Part shown: in pieces, positions 5,656 to 23,696 of the stretch
Position numbering within the stretch: position 1 is the first letter of the stretch
Layout of the letters: every line of letters begins with the position of its first letter
Origin: an uncultured Bacteroidota bacterium
GTDB lineage: Bacteria > Bacteroidota > Bacteroidia > Bacteroidales > WCHB1-69
DNA: 64,000 nucleotides
Assembly: GCA_902786595.1 (NCBI GenBank)
Contig: CADADB010000007.1
Coordinates: forward strand, 6,536-70,535
Direction: 5' to 3'
Position numbers and translations under genes: made by a program
Notes under the pieces: generated by a model
Seen by the model: only the letters and a program-made list of their open reading frames with translations
What the model was told of the DNA's origin: nothing
Database searches by the model: none

Positions 5656-5958
5656 TCACCATTTCCCCACCACAACCGCCGCCCCCGCCACGAAAAACGG
5701 CAGCAGGAAGAAGATAACGGCATAGCCGAAGGCGTTGCCCACGCGGTTGTCAAAGAGTTGCACCCGCGATTTGCTCCAGAAGAATTTCGACGGCACGTCC
5801 AACGCCCAGTTCGTGAACCCGAGGACGAACCCCGCGAGCGCAAGCCCGCCCGCAACGACATATACGTGCGTCCCGATGCCGATGTCGCCGTAGGCGATTT
5901 CCGAGAGCAGGAGGAATAGTCTGATGAGGTTGGTGAGCGGGAGAGGCTGCTGGATGAA
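5656..5958 (-). pseudogene. Decayed copy of the 108-residue membrane protein gene
   Basis: Reading the minus strand gives an open stretch without a start codon. It is bounded upstream by TAA at 5959-5961 and ends with TGA at 5656. Its middle (GFVLGFTNWALDVPSKFFW, then SKSRVQLFDNRVGNAFGY) is clearly homologous to GFILGFTGWAEDVAPRLFW and RVELLDNQIGYA of the intact gene at 23370-23696. The first 25 or so residues, which form the first membrane helix, are missing. I infer a 5'-truncated relic. Confidence 0.75.
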
Positions 5959-5989
5959 TTAAAGGAGGGCGGTCATATAGGAATCGTGA

Positions 5990-9456: not shown

Positions 9457-10119
9457 CTATTTTTTCTTTAAAGCGTCATAAATCTTCTCCAAAATGGCGG
9501 CAGAATTTGTCCCAATGGCGATAATGTTGCCAGACAAAATGGCTCCGATTAAAGATAGCACCTCCAACACTCCATACTTGTGGACGATTTTACGAACTGT
9601 ATCGATATAATCTTTGTCTTTTTTACCATCCTCAAGTTCATCCAAAAACTGAATAACTTCTTCGATATCTTTTTTCTGTTTTTTATCCTTGATATCACGA
9701 CGTTTGGCATTCAATTCGCCAGTGACTTGAGAGAGGTTCGCTTTTTCAACATTGTGGGCGAGTTCTTGGACCAGCTGATCCATAGTGCTTTTACTCGCTT
9801 GGTAAGGAATCAACTCTAACTTGGACAAAGGAAATTCGCCTGGAACCGACACCCGTCCGTCTTTTCTGAACACTATCACTACATAGCCGAACTCTTGCTC
9901 AACTTTTTTGCAGAAAGCGTCCACAGAAATGTCTGCACGGAATGTTAAATCGCCCGTGGTTGGTGCATTGTAAACTTGTACACTCGCCATAGAATCGTTT
10001 TTATCCGCCACATGCCCTTTACTGTCTTTATAGACTTTTAGGGTTGCATCGAATTGGTCCTCAAATTGTTTGGCAAATGCACCGACTGTCTTTCGGCCGT
10101 CAAATTTTAATGTTGCCAT
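9457..10119 (-). CDS. Hypothetical protein with duplicated N-terminal module
   Basis: A 220-residue protein. Two related halves occupy about residues 8-60 and 62-108: TVGAFAKQFEDQF...LKVYKD and SVDAFCKKVEQEFG...VFRKDGRV. The second half matches the C-terminal part of the protein at 11964-12371, so the two define a shared unnamed domain. A charged coiled-coil-like segment rich in K, D and E follows, and a hydrophobic stretch near 185-205 may enter the membrane. Copy C of the 33-bp repeat precedes it. Confidence 0.6.
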   Translation of the reverse strand: MATLKFDGRKTVGAFAKQFEDQFDATLKVYKDSKGHVADKNDSMASVQVYNAPTTGDLTFRADISVDAFCKKVEQEFGYVVIVFRKDGRVSVPGEFPLSKLELIPYQASKSTMDQLVQELAHNVEKANLSQVTGELNAKRRDIKDKKQKKDIEEVIQFLDELEDGKKDKDYIDTVRKIVHKYGVLEVLSLIGAILSGNIIAIGTNSAAILEKIYDALKKK

Positions 10120-11963: not shown

Positions 11964-12371
11964 TTACAGAAATCGCCGTATATCGGCTGCGGTACGGATC
12001 ACTTGAACGTATTCAAGTGCGATTTCAGGAGGAATAAGCACTCTGTTGTCCCGCGTGGCCACTTCCACAGTAAGGCCGAATTCATCATACATTCTATAGC
12101 AAAATTCGCCAACCGTGAGATCGTAAGGACAAATCATTTCGCCCTTTCTGTCGAAATGCCCGCCAGATGGGCGATAGTCCCTGATCGGTCTATGCTCGTT
12201 GGCAGGGCGAGTGGCCCGTCCGTCCTCATAGACACGCAAAAAGCCTCCAAAAACGAGAAAAAACTCGTCCATCAAATCCCGGACTATTTGACGTTCATCA
12301 ATATGCAACGATTTAGGCGTCTCTTGGTAATAGCCACTATTTGCTTTACTGTTCCTATCTAATATGGACAT
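11964..12371 (-). CDS. Hypothetical protein, paralogous domain to 9457-10119
   Basis: A 135-residue protein. The segment LTVGEFCYRMYDEFGLTVEV followed by RDNRVLIPPEIAL aligns with SVDAFCKKVEQEFG...RKDGRVSVPGEFPL in the 220-residue protein. An earlier weaker copy (IVRDLMDEFFLVFGGFLRVYEDG) gives the same two-repeat layout. It lacks the coiled-coil and hydrophobic tail of its paralogue. Function unknown. Confidence 0.6.
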   Translation of the reverse strand: MSILDRNSKANSGYYQETPKSLHIDERQIVRDLMDEFFLVFGGFLRVYEDGRATRPANEHRPIRDYRPSGGHFDRKGEMICPYDLTVGEFCYRMYDEFGLTVEVATRDNRVLIPPEIALEYVQVIRTAADIRRFL

Positions 12372-16385: not shown

Positions 16386-16530
16386 TTACGACCTCCCCAC
16401 CACAACCGCCACCCCCGCCACGAAGAACGGCAGCAGGAAGAAGATGACGGCGTAACCTATTTCCGAAAGCAGCACCAGTGTCCCGAAGATATCGGTGCTC
16501 GAAGCAATCTTGAGGTTGAGCCATAGGGAA
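16386..16530 (-). pseudogene. Second decayed copy of the 108-residue membrane protein gene
   Basis: The minus strand reads LNLKIASSTDIFGTLVLLSEI then GYAVIFFLLPFFVAGVAVVVG and a stop at 16386-16388. The end is nearly identical to that of the 5656-5958 remnant. Everything between LLSEI and GYAVIFF in that copy, about 45 residues, is missing here, so this is an internal-deletion relic. Confidence 0.75.
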
Positions 16531-16550: not shown

Positions 16551-17231
16551 TCATTGTTTGTTTTCTTGATATAATCTTGGGTTAATAGGTGCTATTTTCT
16601 CAATCAAGTATTTCTTTCCACCTAGCTTAAATGCGCACCAAATATAAAAATCAACATCTCTATAGGAAAGAGACGATAGGTTGTAGGCCCTACAAAACGA
16701 ATCATAAACTTTAACATAGTAAGGATAGTCATGCAATGCTTTTTCATATTCTCCAATATTTTTACATGTGTCGTTTTCTGCCTGTTTCTTGCCACGAAGA
16801 GTATATGGCGGAATCTTGTTGTTCTTCAACAAATAGAGCAACACATTCGCCACAATACTGTCATAAATAGGATACTTGTCTGGTTGGTGTAAGGCGCAAT
16901 ACTTTGTGGCGAAAGAGTAATTGTTTCTCTTTTTGCCATCGGAGAGTTGTATTACAGCTATGTCCGCAACAAGATTCAAATCCCCTTTTTTTAGTCGTGA
17001 ATCAATGTTTGCTACCCCCAAGATTTTATTCACCATCACATTCATGGCTTGTATGCCCGTAGAATAGAACAGGTTTAGCAACTTTGCCTTCAAATCGACA
17101 GCTTCAGGCACGGTATGATCAGTATATTCTGTTACAAGATGTTGAAGTATCTTTTCCTGCAGCTCGTATGATCTCAGTTGGCTCTTGTCTTTTAGAACCT
17201 TTTGTGCATCTTTGAATAAATCTTCGATCAT
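16551..17231 (-). CDS. Unknown protein coupled to graspetide ligase; possible OGG/HhH-like fold
   Basis: A 226-residue cytosolic protein. I chose ATG 17231 because its ATGA overlaps the ligase TGA by 4 bp, a sign of translational coupling; an earlier ATG at 17261 exists. SFATKYCALHQPDKYPIYDS near residue 115-134 resembles a pattern I associate with bacterial proteins of the OGG/HhH DNA-glycosylase-like fold, but this is a weak resemblance. DVDFYIWCAFKLGG is near the C-terminus. It is third in the operon after the precursor and ligase. Immunity, self-protection or a new tailoring role are open possibilities. Confidence 0.6.
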   Translation of the reverse strand: MIEDLFKDAQKVLKDKSQLRSYELQEKILQHLVTEYTDHTVPEAVDLKAKLLNLFYSTGIQAMNVMVNKILGVANIDSRLKKGDLNLVADIAVIQLSDGKKRNNYSFATKYCALHQPDKYPIYDSIVANVLLYLLKNNKIPPYTLRGKKQAENDTCKNIGEYEKALHDYPYYVKVYDSFCRAYNLSSLSYRDVDFYIWCAFKLGGKKYLIEKIAPINPRLYQENKQ

Positions 17232-18232
17232 TGTTTCAATCGTTTTGTTTCGTATTTGCATAAATTTTCTGCCATCACTTTTGAGATGTCATATCCTGTT
17301 TCCAACTCAATCCAAAGCCACTGTCCGTTGGGATTGCATTCGAGAAACACATATTCTCCTTCAACTGTCACAATAAAGTCGAAACATCCAAAATGCAGCT
17401 TCATTTTTTCCAAGAAAGCCAAACAAAATTGTCGAATCCGATAGGGAATATCCACAATTTCGTGTTTGAGGTTGTAGTCGTAGCCTTGCCTCCAATCGAT
17501 TTTGCCCTTGTCATCGTCCTGCGCTTGCGAGTCTATTTTGCAGGAGATGATATCCCGGTTGATAACCGTAATACGCAGCTCGTAGTCCTTCTCCACATAG
17601 TTCTGGATAAAGCAGACTGTTTGTGTAAATGCTTCATCCGGCTGCATAAGCAAATCTTCGCTTTCAACTTTTTGAGAATAAAACACGTACTCGTCTTCAC
17701 CATCAACAAAGACACTTTCATTGCCAATTTGCTTAAGAGACAATGTTTTATATCTTTTCGCCAAAGTACAGGCAGGTTCTTTTTCATTTGAAAAACATGT
17801 ATCTGGAATGGTCATCCCCAAATCACGTGCGACGCAAAGCTGCAACATTTTTGAGGCAGCAGGTCTGTCCTCCACAATACTACCTATAGAATACACATCT
17901 TTCAGATAGTAACGGATGAAGCTCAAGAAACTATGAGCTTCATCCAAATTGAATTTGTTGATGCCTTCGACTGCATTTGTAACAGGTAGTTCTTTGGGAA
18001 TTTCGGGTCTGCGGTCCCAAATTGCCGTAATTTGATGGCCAAACAGTTCCAATCCGTTTCTGATATTTCGGATATGAAAATCACACTCCTGCTCATTTGC
18101 CCACCATGAAAAACGATAGTCTGTAAGCAAACATTCAGTATTAAGTCTGAAAACAGGAATACCCCACTCATTAAGATATTGAATCACATGGGTGGGGTGC
18201 GAATCCTCTTTATTCGTGAAAACGAAGATCAT
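17228..18232 (-). CDS. ATP-grasp peptide ligase, graspetide (MvdD-like) maturase
   Basis: A 334-residue ATP-grasp enzyme. The N-terminus (FTNKEDSHPTHVIQYLNEWG, then PVFRLNTE) is the pre-ATP-grasp fold typical of peptide-modifying MvdC/MvdD relatives. The C-terminal metal and ATP site is FDFIVTVEGEYVFLECNPNG at about residues 288-307, then QWLWIELETG. Family members activate Asp or Glu side chains of a ribosomal peptide and join them to Ser, Thr or Lys as omega-esters or amides. It lies 5 bp after the precursor gene and is coupled to the 226-residue gene. Confidence 0.88.
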   Translation of the reverse strand: MIFVFTNKEDSHPTHVIQYLNEWGIPVFRLNTECLLTDYRFSWWANEQECDFHIRNIRNGLELFGHQITAIWDRRPEIPKELPVTNAVEGINKFNLDEAHSFLSFIRYYLKDVYSIGSIVEDRPAASKMLQLCVARDLGMTIPDTCFSNEKEPACTLAKRYKTLSLKQIGNESVFVDGEDEYVFYSQKVESEDLLMQPDEAFTQTVCFIQNYVEKDYELRITVINRDIISCKIDSQAQDDDKGKIDWRQGYDYNLKHEIVDIPYRIRQFCLAFLEKMKLHFGCFDFIVTVEGEYVFLECNPNGQWLWIELETGYDISKVMAENLCKYETKRLKQ

Positions 18233-18237
18233 TTTGA

Positions 18238-18477
18238 TTATCTTACTGATTTGGAATCATCAATCTCGTTTTTCTTATCTTGATACCCCTTACCACCCTT
18301 ACTAGTCCAAAACATTTTTAGACTCCTTGTCCCTACAGTTCGCATCTCATATGAAAACTGATTGTTATCATCGTAATTGAAAATTGGCGGAGTGTATTCC
18401 TGAATCGGACTTGGTGTGGTGAAATTCATTAATAATGGCATAACATTGCCTTGATCGGATTGGTTATAGGTTTGCAT
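18238..18477 (-). CDS. Graspetide-like precursor peptide
   Basis: A 79-residue peptide directly before the ATP-grasp gene. I chose the ATG at 18477 (MQTYNQSDQG); one more ATG lies at 18504. Residues 1-52 form a proline/tyrosine-rich leader with MPLLMNFTTPSPIQEYTPP and an FNYDDNNQFSYEMR block. The tail SKGGKGYQDKKNEIDDSKSV is dense in Ser/Lys donors and Asp/Glu acceptors, as ligation sites in graspetides require. Gene order, size and composition support a RiPP precursor. The cyclisation pattern cannot be read. Confidence 0.78.
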   Translation of the reverse strand: MQTYNQSDQGNVMPLLMNFTTPSPIQEYTPPIFNYDDNNQFSYEMRTVGTRSLKMFWTSKGGKGYQDKKNEIDDSKSVR

Positions 18478-18488
18478 AATTTTGATTA

Positions 18489-18709
18489 TTAATAGGTTAA
18501 ACAATTATCATTATTCATCATTAATTCTTCCTTAAAATCGGTATCGCTGTCTTCAACTTTCAAGTCGCGGTCGTTTTGAGCAAAAATGGCGATGGTACGT
18601 ACCCTTTGGCAAGGTCTGCGTCGAGTGTTTGCAGATTGCCATCAATACGTGCACCTCACGAAGAGTTGCCATCGTCAGGGCAACCAACTGTTGGTTGCAA
18701 TTTTCCATA
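18489..18709 (-). pseudogene. Possible frameshifted small gene before the precursor
   Basis: From ATG 18709 one frame reads MENCNQQLVALTMATLREV, then VLMAICKHSTQTL. About 110 bp on, the neighbouring frame reads RTIAIFAQNDRDLKVEDSDT, then DFKEELMMNNDNC, to TAA at 18489-18491. Both halves look coding and are separated by one base, near 18600. It may be a broken small gene of the same operon. Low confidence, because each half is short. Confidence 0.35.
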
Positions 18710-18733: not shown

Positions 18734-19495
18734 TTATATATCCCATTCCGTATCTTCACTGCCCAAAGCTTGCTGCACTTGATTGATGTCGGAAAGGTTC
18801 TTAAAAGGGCTGGAGGCAGCGAGAGAGTTGATATTATTGAGTGTCAGGGCAAGCATTTCGGTGTTTCCATCACGCAAAGCAGCGTCCACACATTCAAATT
18901 GCTTGGCGAAAACAGCACTCCGTTCGTCGAATGTTTTTTCGAGATAGAGTTTGATATTGTCACTCATCGCATGGATTTGCGCAATAGCCACATCCCGTCG
19001 GGCACGGATTTCCTCCCGTTTGGTCTCTTGCTCCGCTACATATCGGATGGTTTCATTAGAGACCTGAGTAAGTGCTGCAATGGCTGCCATGACCTCCTGT
19101 GGATTTGTGGGATTTGTATTCTTCACCGTGTCCATCAGACTGCCAAGTTTGTCCTCGAAAAAAGTATCTTCCTCCATTGGTGCCATTTCCATTTCTGCAT
19201 CAGGAAGACATTCGGGGGCTTCAACAAGCATCTCTTTTGTTGCCAAGGAGTCTTCTTTGGGTGCGGAAAACAATCCTTTTGCTTCCGACACAACTTTTTC
19301 CCCGTCTGTAAATGTTCCAATTCCTACTCTGGCAACATTGAGAAGTTTGCCTGCGGATATCTTCTTCCCCTTTTTTGGAATTACCTCTTTGACCGCTTCA
19401 GTGAGTTTCGCGCCATGTGCGTCCCAAAAATCTTTTCCTTTCTTGACCGTATTCATTACGTTGTCAAGTCTTATTTTTTTAGATTTCTTTTTCAT
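18734..19495 (-). CDS. Hypothetical protein, last gene of the TPM/TerB operon
   Basis: A 253-residue protein with a lysine-rich N-terminus (MKKKSKKIRLDN). The C-terminal third (RRDVAIAQIHAMSDNIKLYL, then FDERSAVFAKQF and LAASSPFKNL) looks like a long helical hairpin seen in many bacterial hypotheticals. I cannot name the family. The ATG at 19495 lies 2 bp after the stop of the 637-residue gene; a GTG at 19501 is an alternative. Tight spacing suggests the two act together. Confidence 0.65.
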   Translation of the reverse strand: MKKKSKKIRLDNVMNTVKKGKDFWDAHGAKLTEAVKEVIPKKGKKISAGKLLNVARVGIGTFTDGEKVVSEAKGLFSAPKEDSLATKEMLVEAPECLPDAEMEMAPMEEDTFFEDKLGSLMDTVKNTNPTNPQEVMAAIAALTQVSNETIRYVAEQETKREEIRARRDVAIAQIHAMSDNIKLYLEKTFDERSAVFAKQFECVDAALRDGNTEMLALTLNNINSLAASSPFKNLSDINQVQQALGSEDTEWDI

Positions 19496-19497
19496 AT

Positions 19498-21411
19498 TCA
19501 CAATGATGTATTAAGAATTTTCTCTGTTTTTGCAGCAATAATATTGGCCTGTTCATTAAGATTGCCGTCATCGTCCAAGACAGACACTTGGGCCAATTCA
19601 CTCATGGATTTCACCATAATGGCAGCTTGTTGGAAGAGGCCAACCAAGTACATGTCTTTATTGTCAAAGTTGTCAATATAAGGATCCAACTTGTGCAGTT
19701 GCTCGATAGTACGACTTTCAAGATCAGTAGTCAAGCTTTGCAATTCAAGTACACGATGCTTTATCCCGGCCATTACGGTCCAGCTGGCCTCCGTCTGTGC
19801 TACCCACTCTTTCACTTCAGCAAGGTATTCTGTAGCTTCAGTGTACTTGCGTGCGTAAAAGGCGGATGCCAATGTGCTTATAGTCACCCATGCCATACCA
19901 ATTGTGGCTGTTGCGGTGATAGCTGACATCACACTGGTACCAGCTACTATTCCACCACCACCATGTGCAATTGTGCCGCCTCCTAGCCTTGCTAACACAG
20001 CTCTCTTCAGGGCTGCACCATGAAGTTTTTTTATCGCACGGTCTGTTCCCGCCTTTGCAACAGAAGCCACCACATGGGTTACAACATTCGGCGTTCCTAC
20101 TAATCCGATAGCACCAAAACCACTACCTACAGCCAGTACTTTGGCCACATCTGATGCTTTCATGTCTATCTGCTTCATTTCAGCAATTTCTTCCGACTTA
20201 ATATCTATCTCTGTCAGAAACTCATATTCTTTGGTCTTGGATTTTTGGTTAAGTCGTTCAAGATATTCCATAAATTGGCCTATGGTGTTATGCAACGCTT
20301 TCAATCTTATTTTACCAAAATTTTCAAGTGTTTCGTTTATATCGTCACGTACGGCCTCATTAGTGGATTCCACCTCTTTCAATAGTTTCTCCGCTTCTTC
20401 CTTGGTTTGGATGGAATTTTTCCTGTCTTGAACGGCTTGTATGCCTGTCATGACTTTCATACCTTTGACATATATTTGCGGATCTCCCATTTTCTTAGCT
20501 AATTCAATAGATTTGTCCACAGTTTGTTGCCAAAGTGCAACCCGACATTCGGGTTCTTTCAATTCTACAAGTTTGTCCCCGACAACTTGTACAGAATCAA
20601 CCATTTTGTCCGAGATTGAAAAATAGGCTTGCCGTCCTTTTTGGATAGCATTTTGAGCCATCTGCTTGGTCCATTCACCCGCTATTGATGCTGCATCTTT
20701 TGTGCCTCCCCACGTTTTCTGTGCCACATCGGTTACTTTATCTGTTGCTGCCTCTGCAAATTCACCGATCTTGCTAATCAATTTGTTGTCCTCCTCTTTT
20801 GGCTTCTCCACGATATTCATCACTTTACGGACTTTCTGACCGGCTTCGTTAATATATATTTCGTCGTAAGGGACTTTACTTTTGGGAATCCGGGTGCCAT
20901 CCAGCAAAGTGACGATTTCATCTGTGACCACCACATTTTCTGCAATAGCCACGGCCTTGTCATCCAGTTTCGATTGTTTAACAATTCCCCAAATTTGTGT
21001 TGCGACTACAGGCCAAGCAACTATAGCTGTTATTGCCGAAGGAATAGCTTGTTGCCCGAATATGCCAACGCTTGCATCAATATGGATTTTCCCCTCTTGA
21101 GGATATAAATTGATTTTCAATGCGGTTTTCAACCCCACTGCGGATTTAACAAGACCACCATTAGATAGGGAAATGTCGTAATGGTCTCCTTCTTGAATAC
21201 AATCTGCATTGTAACCATTCTCTCTGAATTCTTTCATGATTTGTTCCGCAATGCAAGGTATCAACAAAATGTCTCCAGAGATTTCTTTTGAGGAACGGAA
21301 TACAGCGTCGTGTTTTTCTTTGGCCGTTTGTGCGATTGAATGTCCCTTTTCCTTTGCCACCTGGGTCATTTCCTGCCCTTTTTCTTTAATTTTGTCAAAA
21401 AGTTTTGCCAT
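19498..21411 (-). CDS. Large hypothetical protein with hydrophobic glycine-rich segments
   Basis: A 637-residue protein. Residues 1-40 are repeat-like (KEKGQEMTQVAKEKGHSIAQ). Residues about 50-160 form a domain ending GIFGQQAIPSAITAIVAWPV then QIWGIVKQSKLDD, a pattern I have seen in other bacterial hypotheticals with a membrane-associated end. A long helical middle follows, then a Gly/Ala-rich hydrophobic stretch near 440-540 (GSGFGAIGLVGTP; GGGTIAHGGGGIVAG) that could insert in membranes. No signal peptide. A membrane-active or membrane-sensing role is inference. Confidence 0.65.
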   Translation of the reverse strand: MAKLFDKIKEKGQEMTQVAKEKGHSIAQTAKEKHDAVFRSSKEISGDILLIPCIAEQIMKEFRENGYNADCIQEGDHYDISLSNGGLVKSAVGLKTALKINLYPQEGKIHIDASVGIFGQQAIPSAITAIVAWPVVATQIWGIVKQSKLDDKAVAIAENVVVTDEIVTLLDGTRIPKSKVPYDEIYINEAGQKVRKVMNIVEKPKEEDNKLISKIGEFAEAATDKVTDVAQKTWGGTKDAASIAGEWTKQMAQNAIQKGRQAYFSISDKMVDSVQVVGDKLVELKEPECRVALWQQTVDKSIELAKKMGDPQIYVKGMKVMTGIQAVQDRKNSIQTKEEAEKLLKEVESTNEAVRDDINETLENFGKIRLKALHNTIGQFMEYLERLNQKSKTKEYEFLTEIDIKSEEIAEMKQIDMKASDVAKVLAVGSGFGAIGLVGTPNVVTHVVASVAKAGTDRAIKKLHGAALKRAVLARLGGGTIAHGGGGIVAGTSVMSAITATATIGMAWVTISTLASAFYARKYTEATEYLAEVKEWVAQTEASWTVMAGIKHRVLELQSLTTDLESRTIEQLHKLDPYIDNFDNKDMYLVGLFQQAAIMVKSMSELAQVSVLDDDGNLNEQANIIAAKTEKILNTSL

Positions 21412-21437: not shown

Positions 21438-22079
21438 TCAAACATACTCCTGTCTTGACGAAGCATGCGTAATAGTTGTATTCTTAACATTTTGATTGAT
21501 ACGTCTTATAGTATCAAGGTTGACTTTTAGATTGCCTTGTTGTGCGGCCGCAAACTTTGTCTTGTTATCTTGAACTTTCAAACCCACGTATGCGGCTGCC
21601 ACTCCTACTGCGGCAACAGCAACAGAAACACCGATTTTATGAAGCTTTTCCCGAAGTTTCTTCTTCCGTTCTATATTATAATTGGCCAAGGCTTCAGTAA
21701 TGTAAGAGTTAAGTTCTTCTTTGCAGACTCCCGCTTTTTGCGACCGATACAAAAGTGCTTTCATTTCCTTGCCATCAATCTCCCCATCATCATCCACAAA
21801 TAGTTTCACCTTGGCTATCAGATTTTTCTTGTATTCCATCCGAATCATTTCGTTAAGACCATAATTACTGACCCCAAGCTTCACCGTCAATTTGCAGAGT
21901 TCCTCGTATTCCGCCTTGGTGATCTCACCGTCCTCAGTGGCTGTTCTTACTAAATCCCGTAATTGTTGCTGATATTGTTCCAACAATGCCGGGTCCGAGA
22001 TTGTTGGATCAAGATTCTCCTCTTTATTATTAACTTTCACAGGAAGAGTCTGTTTTGTTTTGTCTAAAAGATCAACCAT
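21438..22079 (-). CDS. TerB-like protein with C-terminal membrane segment
   Basis: A 213-residue protein. Residues about 35-130 contain two acidic loops, ATEDGEITKAEYEEL and VDDDGEIDGKEMKALL, embedded in helices. This resembles the TerB/tellurite-resistance-type helical fold, whose acidic turns can bind metal; EF-hand-like binding is an alternative reading. An alanine/valine-rich helix near 149-168 (VSVAVAAVGVAAAYVG) may anchor it. It lies between the TPM gene and the 637-residue gene in one operon. Confidence 0.65.
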   Translation of the reverse strand: MVDLLDKTKQTLPVKVNNKEENLDPTISDPALLEQYQQQLRDLVRTATEDGEITKAEYEELCKLTVKLGVSNYGLNEMIRMEYKKNLIAKVKLFVDDDGEIDGKEMKALLYRSQKAGVCKEELNSYITEALANYNIERKKKLREKLHKIGVSVAVAAVGVAAAYVGLKVQDNKTKFAAAQQGNLKVNLDTIRRINQNVKNTTITHASSRQEYV

Positions 22080-22144: not shown

Positions 22145-23281
22145 CTACCAACTTCCAGAAACGGAACTCCCACCTTGTTTCGGCTTGTTGCCTCCTCCGA
22201 GTCTCGGTTTGCCACCTCTGCCACCCAGTCTTGGCCTACCTCTTTTCCTTTTGCCTCCTCCAAACACCGACTTTACCGTGTCCGCAACTTTATCCTTGTT
22301 TTTGAGTGCAAACATACCACCACCTGCAATTAAAGCGCCAACAACGGCTTTTTTCAATAAACCGCCCTCGTCGGTCCTGCTCACCTCCTCTTGTAAGTCA
22401 TCCAAATCTCTAATATTCCGTTTCCGATTTTGATATTCTGAATAATTGTATGAGTTATTTTCTTCGTCTTCGTCATAGTCATAGCCATTATCTTCTTCAA
22501 TCTCATAATCAAAAATTGTTTCTGGCTTATGGACAACTTTTTTGGAGGAGGTAGGATGTTTATATGTGCTGCTACGACAAGGAATCGCTTTCTTGTTCAA
22601 ACCATTTAACTTCGATACAGCAAACTTTACGACAACTCCGATCAGAAGCAGTAAAATAGCTATAAGGACAAATGCCAATAAACCTTCTAAAATTATTCTA
22701 AAGACTGACGTTCCATTCTCTTTGCTATGTTCCCCATCATGCTTATCATAGTTATCAGAATGCGATGGTGTATAGTTTGAGGATTCGCTTTCCTCGGACA
22801 TACTGTTCATATACTCCAAAACGGCTTCAATACCGCCGAAATAATCATTCTCCTTGAAATGAGGAATCATGCTTTCTTGCACTATTTCCTCGCACACTGA
22901 GTTTGGGAAGACATCTTGCAAGTCGGGACTGGCAAGCAACATGACCTCCCCCCTTTCCCGATCCGATTTTGGCTTCACTAAGACAAGCATGCCGTCTTCT
23001 TGGGCAACATTCCATTTGTCGCATAATTCAGCAGCATACTCATCAATAGAATAATCTCCAAATGTGGATACTATGGCCACAGCAATTTGTGTGGAATAAT
23101 AATCGCACATGGCCTTAACATCCTCGCGCAACTGTTTCAGTTCGGATTTGGACAGGATGCCGGCTGCATCGGTCACGTATTTATCCTTCATTTTTGGCAA
23201 ACTGGCTGCGCAAACAGTGTTGCTGACCATCAGAATGATTGCGAACAACAGTAGGTTACAAACAAATCTAATGTGTTTCAT
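22145..23281 (-). CDS. TPM domain protein, secreted N-terminus, one membrane helix
   Basis: A 378-residue protein. Signal peptide at residues 1-26, then a TPM domain at about 30-165 (YVTDAAGILSKSELKQLRED, STQIAVAIVSTFGD and GMLVLVKPKSDRERGEVML). TPM domains are linked to photosystem II repair and to metal-dependent phosphatase activity, and in bacteria they mostly sit on the periplasmic side. A serine-rich linker and one strong membrane helix near 200-225 follow. The tail is acidic then Gly/Arg/Lys-rich (RPRLGGRGGKPRLGG). It is the first gene of the operon. Confidence 0.85.
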   Translation of the reverse strand: MKHIRFVCNLLLFAIILMVSNTVCAASLPKMKDKYVTDAAGILSKSELKQLREDVKAMCDYYSTQIAVAIVSTFGDYSIDEYAAELCDKWNVAQEDGMLVLVKPKSDRERGEVMLLASPDLQDVFPNSVCEEIVQESMIPHFKENDYFGGIEAVLEYMNSMSEESESSNYTPSHSDNYDKHDGEHSKENGTSVFRIILEGLLAFVLIAILLLLIGVVVKFAVSKLNGLNKKAIPCRSSTYKHPTSSKKVVHKPETIFDYEIEEDNGYDYDEDEENNSYNYSEYQNRKRNIRDLDDLQEEVSRTDEGGLLKKAVVGALIAGGGMFALKNKDKVADTVKSVFGGGKRKRGRPRLGGRGGKPRLGGGNKPKQGGSSVSGSW

Positions 23282-23369: not shown

Positions 23370-23696
23370 TCATAAAAACAGAATAATCGCCCCTATAGCA
23401 GCAGGAATGAAAAAGAATTGTATTGCTAATGTTATGGCATAACCTATTTGATTGTCTAAAAGTTCTACTCTGCCTTTAATCCAGAACAATCTAGGAGCAA
23501 CATCTTCTGCCCAGCCCGTAAATCCGAGAATAAAACCTACAAGAGCGCATATTCCTCCAATAATATACGTCGTATTACTCTCCAATGGAACATCATCGCT
23601 CCAGTTCGGATTTAAAAGAACAAAGGCGGTGTATATTGCACCCGCAATCATTATTAGTGGACCAATAATTTTCCAAATCCATAAGAACACTCTCAT
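23370..23696 (-). CDS. Small membrane protein, intact parent of two remnants
   Basis: A 108-residue protein with three to four hydrophobic segments: residues 5-28, 42-62 and 83-108. The loop between them is GWAEDVAPRLFWIKGRVELL. I do not recognise the family. Two decayed homologues lie at 5656-5958 and 16386-16530 in the same orientation, so this gene seems to have been duplicated and lost at island module boundaries. Confidence 0.7.
   Translation of the reverse strand: MRVFLWIWKIIGPLIMIAGAIYTAFVLLNPNWSDDVPLESNTTYIIGGICALVGFILGFTGWAEDVAPRLFWIKGRVELLDNQIGYAITLAIQFFFIPAAIGAIILFL

Follow-up and report, generated by a model that had tools for sequence, protein, structure and literature searches.

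A predicted small graspetide cluster with a decayed TerB gene upstream, and a probable passenger gene beside it, in an uncultured member of the Bacteroidales

Introduction

Microviridin clusters combine a ligase of the MvdC/MvdD level with an acetyltransferase and a transporter. The main text of one graspetide survey gives Phhx(1,2)h as a leader motif and places the grasp-with-SPASM systems in branch 5 (PMC8939145). The main text of another counts 24 earlier and 19 new graspetide groups and describes graspetides that depend on a partner protein (rosaritide MirC, corallotide CorD), where the partner either resembles a PPIase or assists an oxygenase; some ligases or tailoring enzymes need, or gain from, such a partner (PMC13097080).

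Here we describe a locus in the window, by which we mean the whole stretch of 64,000 nucleotides that was analysed. With good probability, its precursor and ligase form the core of a small graspetide cluster that in full comprises TerB, precursor and ligase, and the 226-aa gene that follows them is a passenger.

Results

Layout of the locus

All three genes lie on the minus strand. The graspetide precursor of 79 aa (18238..18477) ends 5 bp before the ATG of the ligase according to the ORF listing, and the ligase, an ATP-grasp peptide ligase of the graspetide synthetase type comprising 334 aa (17228..18232), was assigned by homology, profile matches and its place in a tree. The stop codon of the ligase and the ATG of the third gene at 17231 overlap by 4 bp (ATGA). 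The ORF of this third gene encodes 236 aa from its first ATG (17261) and 226 aa, without a TM-like stretch, from the ATG at 17231 (16551..17231); the latter start is favoured because the closest relatives begin at the corresponding position. These coordinates bear out the three-gene layout described in an earlier note made from the DNA sequence. The same note had remarked that no acetyltransferase, SPASM protein or transporter adjoins these genes, which agrees with our scan of the ligase and six neighbouring proteins against Pfam and NCBIfam, where none of these families was found. Nor did we find a protease, a transporter or an export signal, a point against the cluster reading. The note had overlooked the remains of a TerB gene immediately before the precursor (18525..18708, minus strand), which were recognised by tblastn with the TerB proteins of G062 and G183. 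The N-terminal piece of the gene lies at 18708-18658 and its C-terminal piece, in another frame, at about 18602-18525, the middle being missing.

The ligase

The ligase is a peptide maturase of the MvdC/MvdD/SAV_5884 type, matching the NCBIfam models TIGR04187 (E 4.9e-55), TIGR04184 (E 1.1e-45) and TIGR04185 (E 1.1e-42). It misses every curated NCBIfam cut-off listed and belongs to the wider family only, with scores of 146 and 156 against the microviridin-level models, where the cut-offs are 425 and 475, and of 119 bits against TIGR04192, where the cut-off is 230. A profile of eight ligases of the window group matches the solved ligases 5ig9, 5ig8, 7m4s and CdnC (7mgv) from end to end (E 1.5e-45 to 5.9e-39), and 9bou more weakly; 5ig9 and 5ig8 are MdnC and MdnB, the ligases of the microviridin pathway. 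A tree was built from 25 ligases, including 12 of the window group and eight of grasp-with-SPASM systems; in it, the 12 form a single clade (100/99) that is separate from the eight (100/99). The neighbouring set, which comprises the Pseudomonas and Croceicoccus plasmid ligases, a Streptomyces ligase and that of G001, is without firm support (84/88). At the sequence level, these properties support the assignment of the window ligase as a graspetide-type ligase that would act on the 79-mer.

Among the plasmids of the collection, the top-ranked match has 30% identity, and all 84 matching records stay below 60%. Two plasmids, of Pseudomonas aeruginosa and Croceicoccus, carry trios of their own (L125 2123-4109 and L127 960-3161), in which a small gene of 120 or 174 aa is followed by a ligase and then by a gene of 220 or 237 aa with membrane-like stretches.

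SPASM partners are found beside the ligases at nine other loci (L052-L060), eight of them scoring above the TIGR04193 cut-off and that of L054 just below it, and the window ligase and its six scanned neighbours show no such pairing of a TIGR04193 protein with a TIGR04192 ligase. On the ligase scores, the separate clade and the SPASM partners present elsewhere, we reject the idea that the window cassette is a relict of a grasp-with-SPASM system.

The precursor

The window precursor matches no Pfam or NCBIfam family, and the graspetide families of NCBIfam are matched by none of ten precursors tested (that of the window and nine relatives). The sole NCBIfam match among the ten, to an unrelated enzyme at E 0.18, is taken as chance. 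An alignment of nine of the precursors has 11 columns that are invariant in all nine, namely P14, L15, I25, Y35, Q40, T50, D67, N70, D73, D74, and K76. The leader motif PLLMNF (P14-F19; 18421..18438, minus strand), of which P14 and L15 but not F19 are invariant, fits the published pattern when the alignment is judged by eye. Conserved Thr/Ser/Lys donors and Asp/Glu acceptors are present in all nine sequences, as T50 and K76 on the one side and D67, D73, and D74 on the other, and the L122 precursor, which is outside the alignment, agrees with this arrangement by eye. The best candidates for donors would be T50 and K76, and those for acceptors D67, D73, and D74. The putative donor T50 belongs to a conserved GTRSLK block (residues 49-54; 18316..18333, minus strand), and the C-terminal block D67-K76 (DKKNEIDDSK; 18250..18279, minus strand) would provide the acceptor aspartates and the donor lysine. 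The distance from T50 to the C-terminal block differs between precursors, which would be unusual if a ring joined the two.

The ligase might instead add or join residues elsewhere without forming rings, for example as a RimK-like enzyme on the C-terminal tail of the precursor. The RimK family does match the ligase (E 1e-5), and the conserved C-terminal block of the precursor matches no known precursor family. However, the RimK match is far weaker than those to the peptide maturases (E 5e-55), and the solved relatives that were found are peptide ligases of the graspetide kind, so we consider this explanation very unlikely and retain the ring-forming ligase.

Recurrence and selection

The precursor and the ligase are adjacent at 16 loci in five families of one order: the window, a second locus of the same genome (C9), G057, G062, G043 (with its genes divided between two contigs), G183, G899, G898, G886, G887, G889, G881, G390, G929, G190, and G271. 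As the two genes recur side by side at the window and 15 other loci, their pairing is not due to chance. Together with the homology of the ligase, the leader motif and the conserved donor and acceptor residues, this recurrence supports what the earlier note had proposed for the first two genes, a graspetide-like precursor and its ligase. The precursor was found in 4 of 104 genomes of the host family, in 5 of 393 genomes of the order and, phylum-wide, in 1 of 395 genomes, which is the window's own; in four other families it was found in 7/31, 2/56, 1/3 and 1/3 genomes. These sets of genomes overlap one another, and some of their members had been known beforehand to match. The figures for the phylum and the order indicate that the group is sparse.

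In the family f81, the trio of TerB, precursor and ligase is present in 7 of 31 genomes, all of the genus g97; an intact example of the G183 type lies at L091 6647-8404. For two species of one genus (G183 and G889), dN/dS is 0.039 for TerB, 0.028 for the precursor (dN 0.02, dS 0.73) and 0.040 for the ligase, which shows, as far as coding sequences are informative, that all three are under purifying selection in this genus. For the window-C9 and window-G057 pairs, silent sites are saturated in precursor and ligase, and so no ratio is given. A precursor that is nearly fixed within one genus argues for a conserved physiological role and not for an arms-race toxin.

When G183 is compared with the rearranged neighbourhoods L117, L119, and L120, the common DNA begins at most about 140 bp before TerB; its other end coincides with the stop codon of the ligase or lies some 25 bp beyond. 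The varied left flanks had raised the suspicion of a mobile cassette in g97; as several species of this genus share DNA of the right-hand flank, local rearrangement is as likely as transposition.

The upstream TerB-like gene

In G062 (L042), G183, G390, and G271, a TerB-like gene on the same strand ends 6-27 bp before the precursor. The encoded proteins, in which the DG..E motif is kept, match PF05099 with E-values of 2e-14, 2e-8, 3e-5 and 5e-4, respectively; the cut-off is passed by G062 and G183, barely by G390 (24.6 vs 24.4 bits), and is missed by G271 (20.8). Our own TerB profile, built from five proteins, matches ten of the 16 precursor-ligase loci at E 3.1e-24 or better, where five of the matched proteins had gone into the model and the remaining five are near-copies of one of those. 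The profile has no match at nine SPASM-type loci, at L051, or at eight viral and five plasmid ligase loci, the flanks of which are short in places, and it also matches the third-gene islands L046 and L048, which are without a ligase. Over the 16 loci, the TerB gene is intact at ten, decayed at two (the window and G057, where the remnant lies at the same position) and absent beside the precursor at four (C9, G043, G190, and G929). Seven of the ten intact loci come from one genus, and the independent observations number about four (families f1, f81, f106, and f65). The absence of the gene at four loci and its dead state in the window, which has a remnant in place of an intact TerB directly upstream, indicate that TerB is not strictly needed.

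To our knowledge, TerB-domain proteins are widespread and their role is unclear. Against PDB sequences, the TerB profile gave a single match, a transcriptional regulator at E 0.18. Other ter genes were not recognised beside the TerB-like gene, as judged without a profile search. The 213-aa protein of the window island was considered as a replacement for TerB and set aside, the comparison of profiles with the TerB alignment giving a probability of 4%. At the G190 locus, a 410-aa protein (L093 5967-7199) occupies the usual TerB position, where it overlaps the precursor start by 4 bp; it shows a weak match to a DnaJ-type zinc finger, below the cut-off. The papers listed in literature searches showed no link between TerB and graspetides, and TerB does not appear in the main texts of the two surveys (PMC8939145, PMC13097080).

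The third gene

Relatives of the third gene are present at none of the other 15 precursor-ligase loci, and a ligase was found in none of 32 stretches that carry such relatives. Thirty of these stretches are L045-L049, L017-L019, L095-L099 and 17 viral loci, some of them near-copies, and the other two, of only 3.3 kb, hold the weak matches of G463 and G401. On this comparison of neighbourhoods, we reject a conserved partnership. The earlier note, which had suggested a tailoring enzyme or an immunity protein, had also named ligase homologues without a conserved precursor or third gene beside them as a finding that would speak against it: the third gene is indeed missing there, while the precursor is present.

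The six closest relatives are 47-50% identical to the third protein. Five of them (L045, L046, L047, L048, and L095) sit in gene islands that contain a small coiled-coil-like protein, tandem units related to window 9457-10119, OmpA-type proteins, PPRWFW membrane proteins or TerB-like genes; none of those components was seen around the sixth, L017. In the plasmid and phage collections, no relative was found at E 1e-3. Searches of 15 family members against PHROGs and Pfam gave no accepted family, the weak matches being to DUF6308 in two (best E 0.023) and to TSP_NTD in one. The predicted fold is nearest to the OGG/MutY glycosylases (HhH-GPD; OGG2, MutY), at a Z level that could stem from nothing more than a shared arrangement. 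Foldseek gave no match at E 0.001, and no HhH-GPD match was accepted in sequence searches of Pfam, NCBIfam or PDB. K110 and D124 are invariant in all 15 proteins and might correspond to the catalytic Lys/Asp pair of HhH-GPD enzymes. The protein probably has a nucleic-acid-related, glycosylase-like role of its own, as far as the structural model can tell. Regarding the DNA-linked effector that was also proposed, the predicted fold lends it some weight, any tie to the peptide being hypothetical. In relatives on viral contigs (L081, L082, L083, and others), an extra N-terminal stretch resembles, by eye, a recombinase SAM-like domain.

At C9, G057, G062, G043, and G190, the gene after the ligase encodes a protein with membrane-like stretches; in the window its place is taken by the gene of the 226-aa protein, and elsewhere by different genes. 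A fragment of a small PPRWFW-type membrane gene lies directly past the third gene (16394..16457). It is a 64-bp match, 92% identical to 5664-5727, a segment that overlaps a PPRWFW gene copy with an in-frame stop (5698-5976), and the window holds a further membrane gene of this type at 23370-23696. Related islands contain members of the PPRWFW family as well, and one stands immediately after the ligase at G043 and, as a weaker match, at G190.

These observations bear on whether the 226-aa protein, gained in this lineage, could be dedicated to the peptide, be it in tailoring, in immunity or as an effector. Such a role would fit its 4-bp translational coupling to the ligase, its intact ORF and a family that is far less changed at amino-acid than at silent sites (pN 0.09, pS 0.85 for L045 vs L046), and the non-conserved membrane genes found after the ligase at five loci suggest a slot that may hold lineage-specific effectors or immunity proteins. 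Nevertheless, the gene is present at one of the 16 loci, its relatives have no ligase nearby, and the fragment of an island-kit gene that follows it points to island shuffling. We therefore regard a dedicated role as improbable. The third gene is a probable passenger from the surrounding island, and its translation is coupled to that of the ligase at this locus alone; the overlap could nonetheless mean that it works in this strain, conserved or not. In the simplest view, the graspetide genes and the third gene were carried independently of each other by a single modular type of island.

The surrounding island

Further genes of the window island lie upstream of the TerB remnant on the minus strand. 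They encode proteins of 255 aa (18734..19501), of 637 aa (19498..21411), which matches the PADLOC candidate family PDC-M09A (E 9e-18), and of 213 aa (21438..22079), with a weak match to the co-chaperone DjlA (E 3e-4). These three genes form a block, a repeat of which lies close to the genome's second graspetide locus, and the TPM-domain protein that follows (22145..23281) has a relative there. Elsewhere in the window, units of unknown family (9457-10119 and 11997-12311) have direct matches in the islands L047 and L048 of other genera and are related, through L048, to units in L045 and L095.

Instead of being secreted as a natural product, the peptide might stay inside the cell and belong to a stress or phage-defence island linked to TerB, its stapled form binding TerB or an island membrane protein. 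The lack of transporter or protease family matches beside the pair and the extreme conservation of the precursor within one genus are in line with this proposal, as is the window island itself, with its relative of PDC-M09A and its TPM protein, partly repeated near the second locus. In contrast, the genes around the trio in the genus g97 are not of the window island type, and PDC-M09A is no more than a candidate family in PADLOC. We consider this proposal possible but rather unlikely.

Discussion

For the graspetide cluster that we favour, the following course of events can be proposed. The ligase would dock on the PLLMNF leader and activate the conserved Asp side chains with ATP, and the activated Asp would be joined to Thr50 and/or Lys76, forming macrolactone or macrolactam rings with a loss of 18 Da each. 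In the complete form, TerB may act as a partner, for instance as a chaperone, a metal-binding helper or a sensor of the stapled peptide; this suggestion is based on the conservation of the trio and on the analogy with the partner proteins described in the main text of PMC13097080. In the window, where TerB is decayed, the pair might work without a partner, borrow another TerB-like protein or be heading towards decay. As the reading frames are intact, a functional pair is favoured.

A more speculative step, to which we give somewhat less credence than to the internal component described above, is that TerB is a dedicated partner and that the near-invariant stapled peptide stays in the producer, working with TerB in a stress or defence module. 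If this were true, a graspetide would serve as an internal cofactor or signal instead of a secreted inhibitor. A small, conserved set of three genes linking TerB to a single peptide with a predicted modification would also offer a direct experimental handle on the role of TerB.

The earlier note had further raised the possibility of a new graspetide class. The separate clade of the ligases and the ten precursors without an NCBIfam graspetide family make this plausible, as measured against the main texts of the surveys (PMC8939145, PMC13097080), and the ligases of the window group may already be part of a numbered group that is published but not discussed there.

Comparison with known systems

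With the microviridin and chryseoviridin clusters (MvdC/MvdD, CdnC), the window shares full-length ligase homology, a leader with a P-hydrophobic-hydrophobic motif and conserved Thr/Lys and Asp residues in the precursor. Unlike in those clusters, the window ligase scores below all curated cut-offs, the precursor has no NCBIfam family, the neighbours scanned include no acetyltransferase or ABC transporter, and TerB lies upstream at most loci of the group; both the ligase scores and the six neighbours thus set the window apart from a microviridin cluster. The grasp-with-SPASM systems of Bacteroidetes likewise use an ATP-grasp peptide maturase, and the same host family carries both kinds of system, but the six window neighbours include no SPASM protein and the ligases fall into separate clades. 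As for the individual proteins, the third protein is nearest to the HhH-GPD glycosylases in its predicted fold, sequence matches being absent, and the PF05099 model of the TerB proteins is matched by the upstream gene in three of four relatives scanned. The rosaritide and corallotide clusters resemble the window group in that a non-ligase protein is conserved in the cluster. Unlike in these, the candidate partner here is TerB, with a putative role, and graspetide chemistry would thereby gain a further kind of partner.
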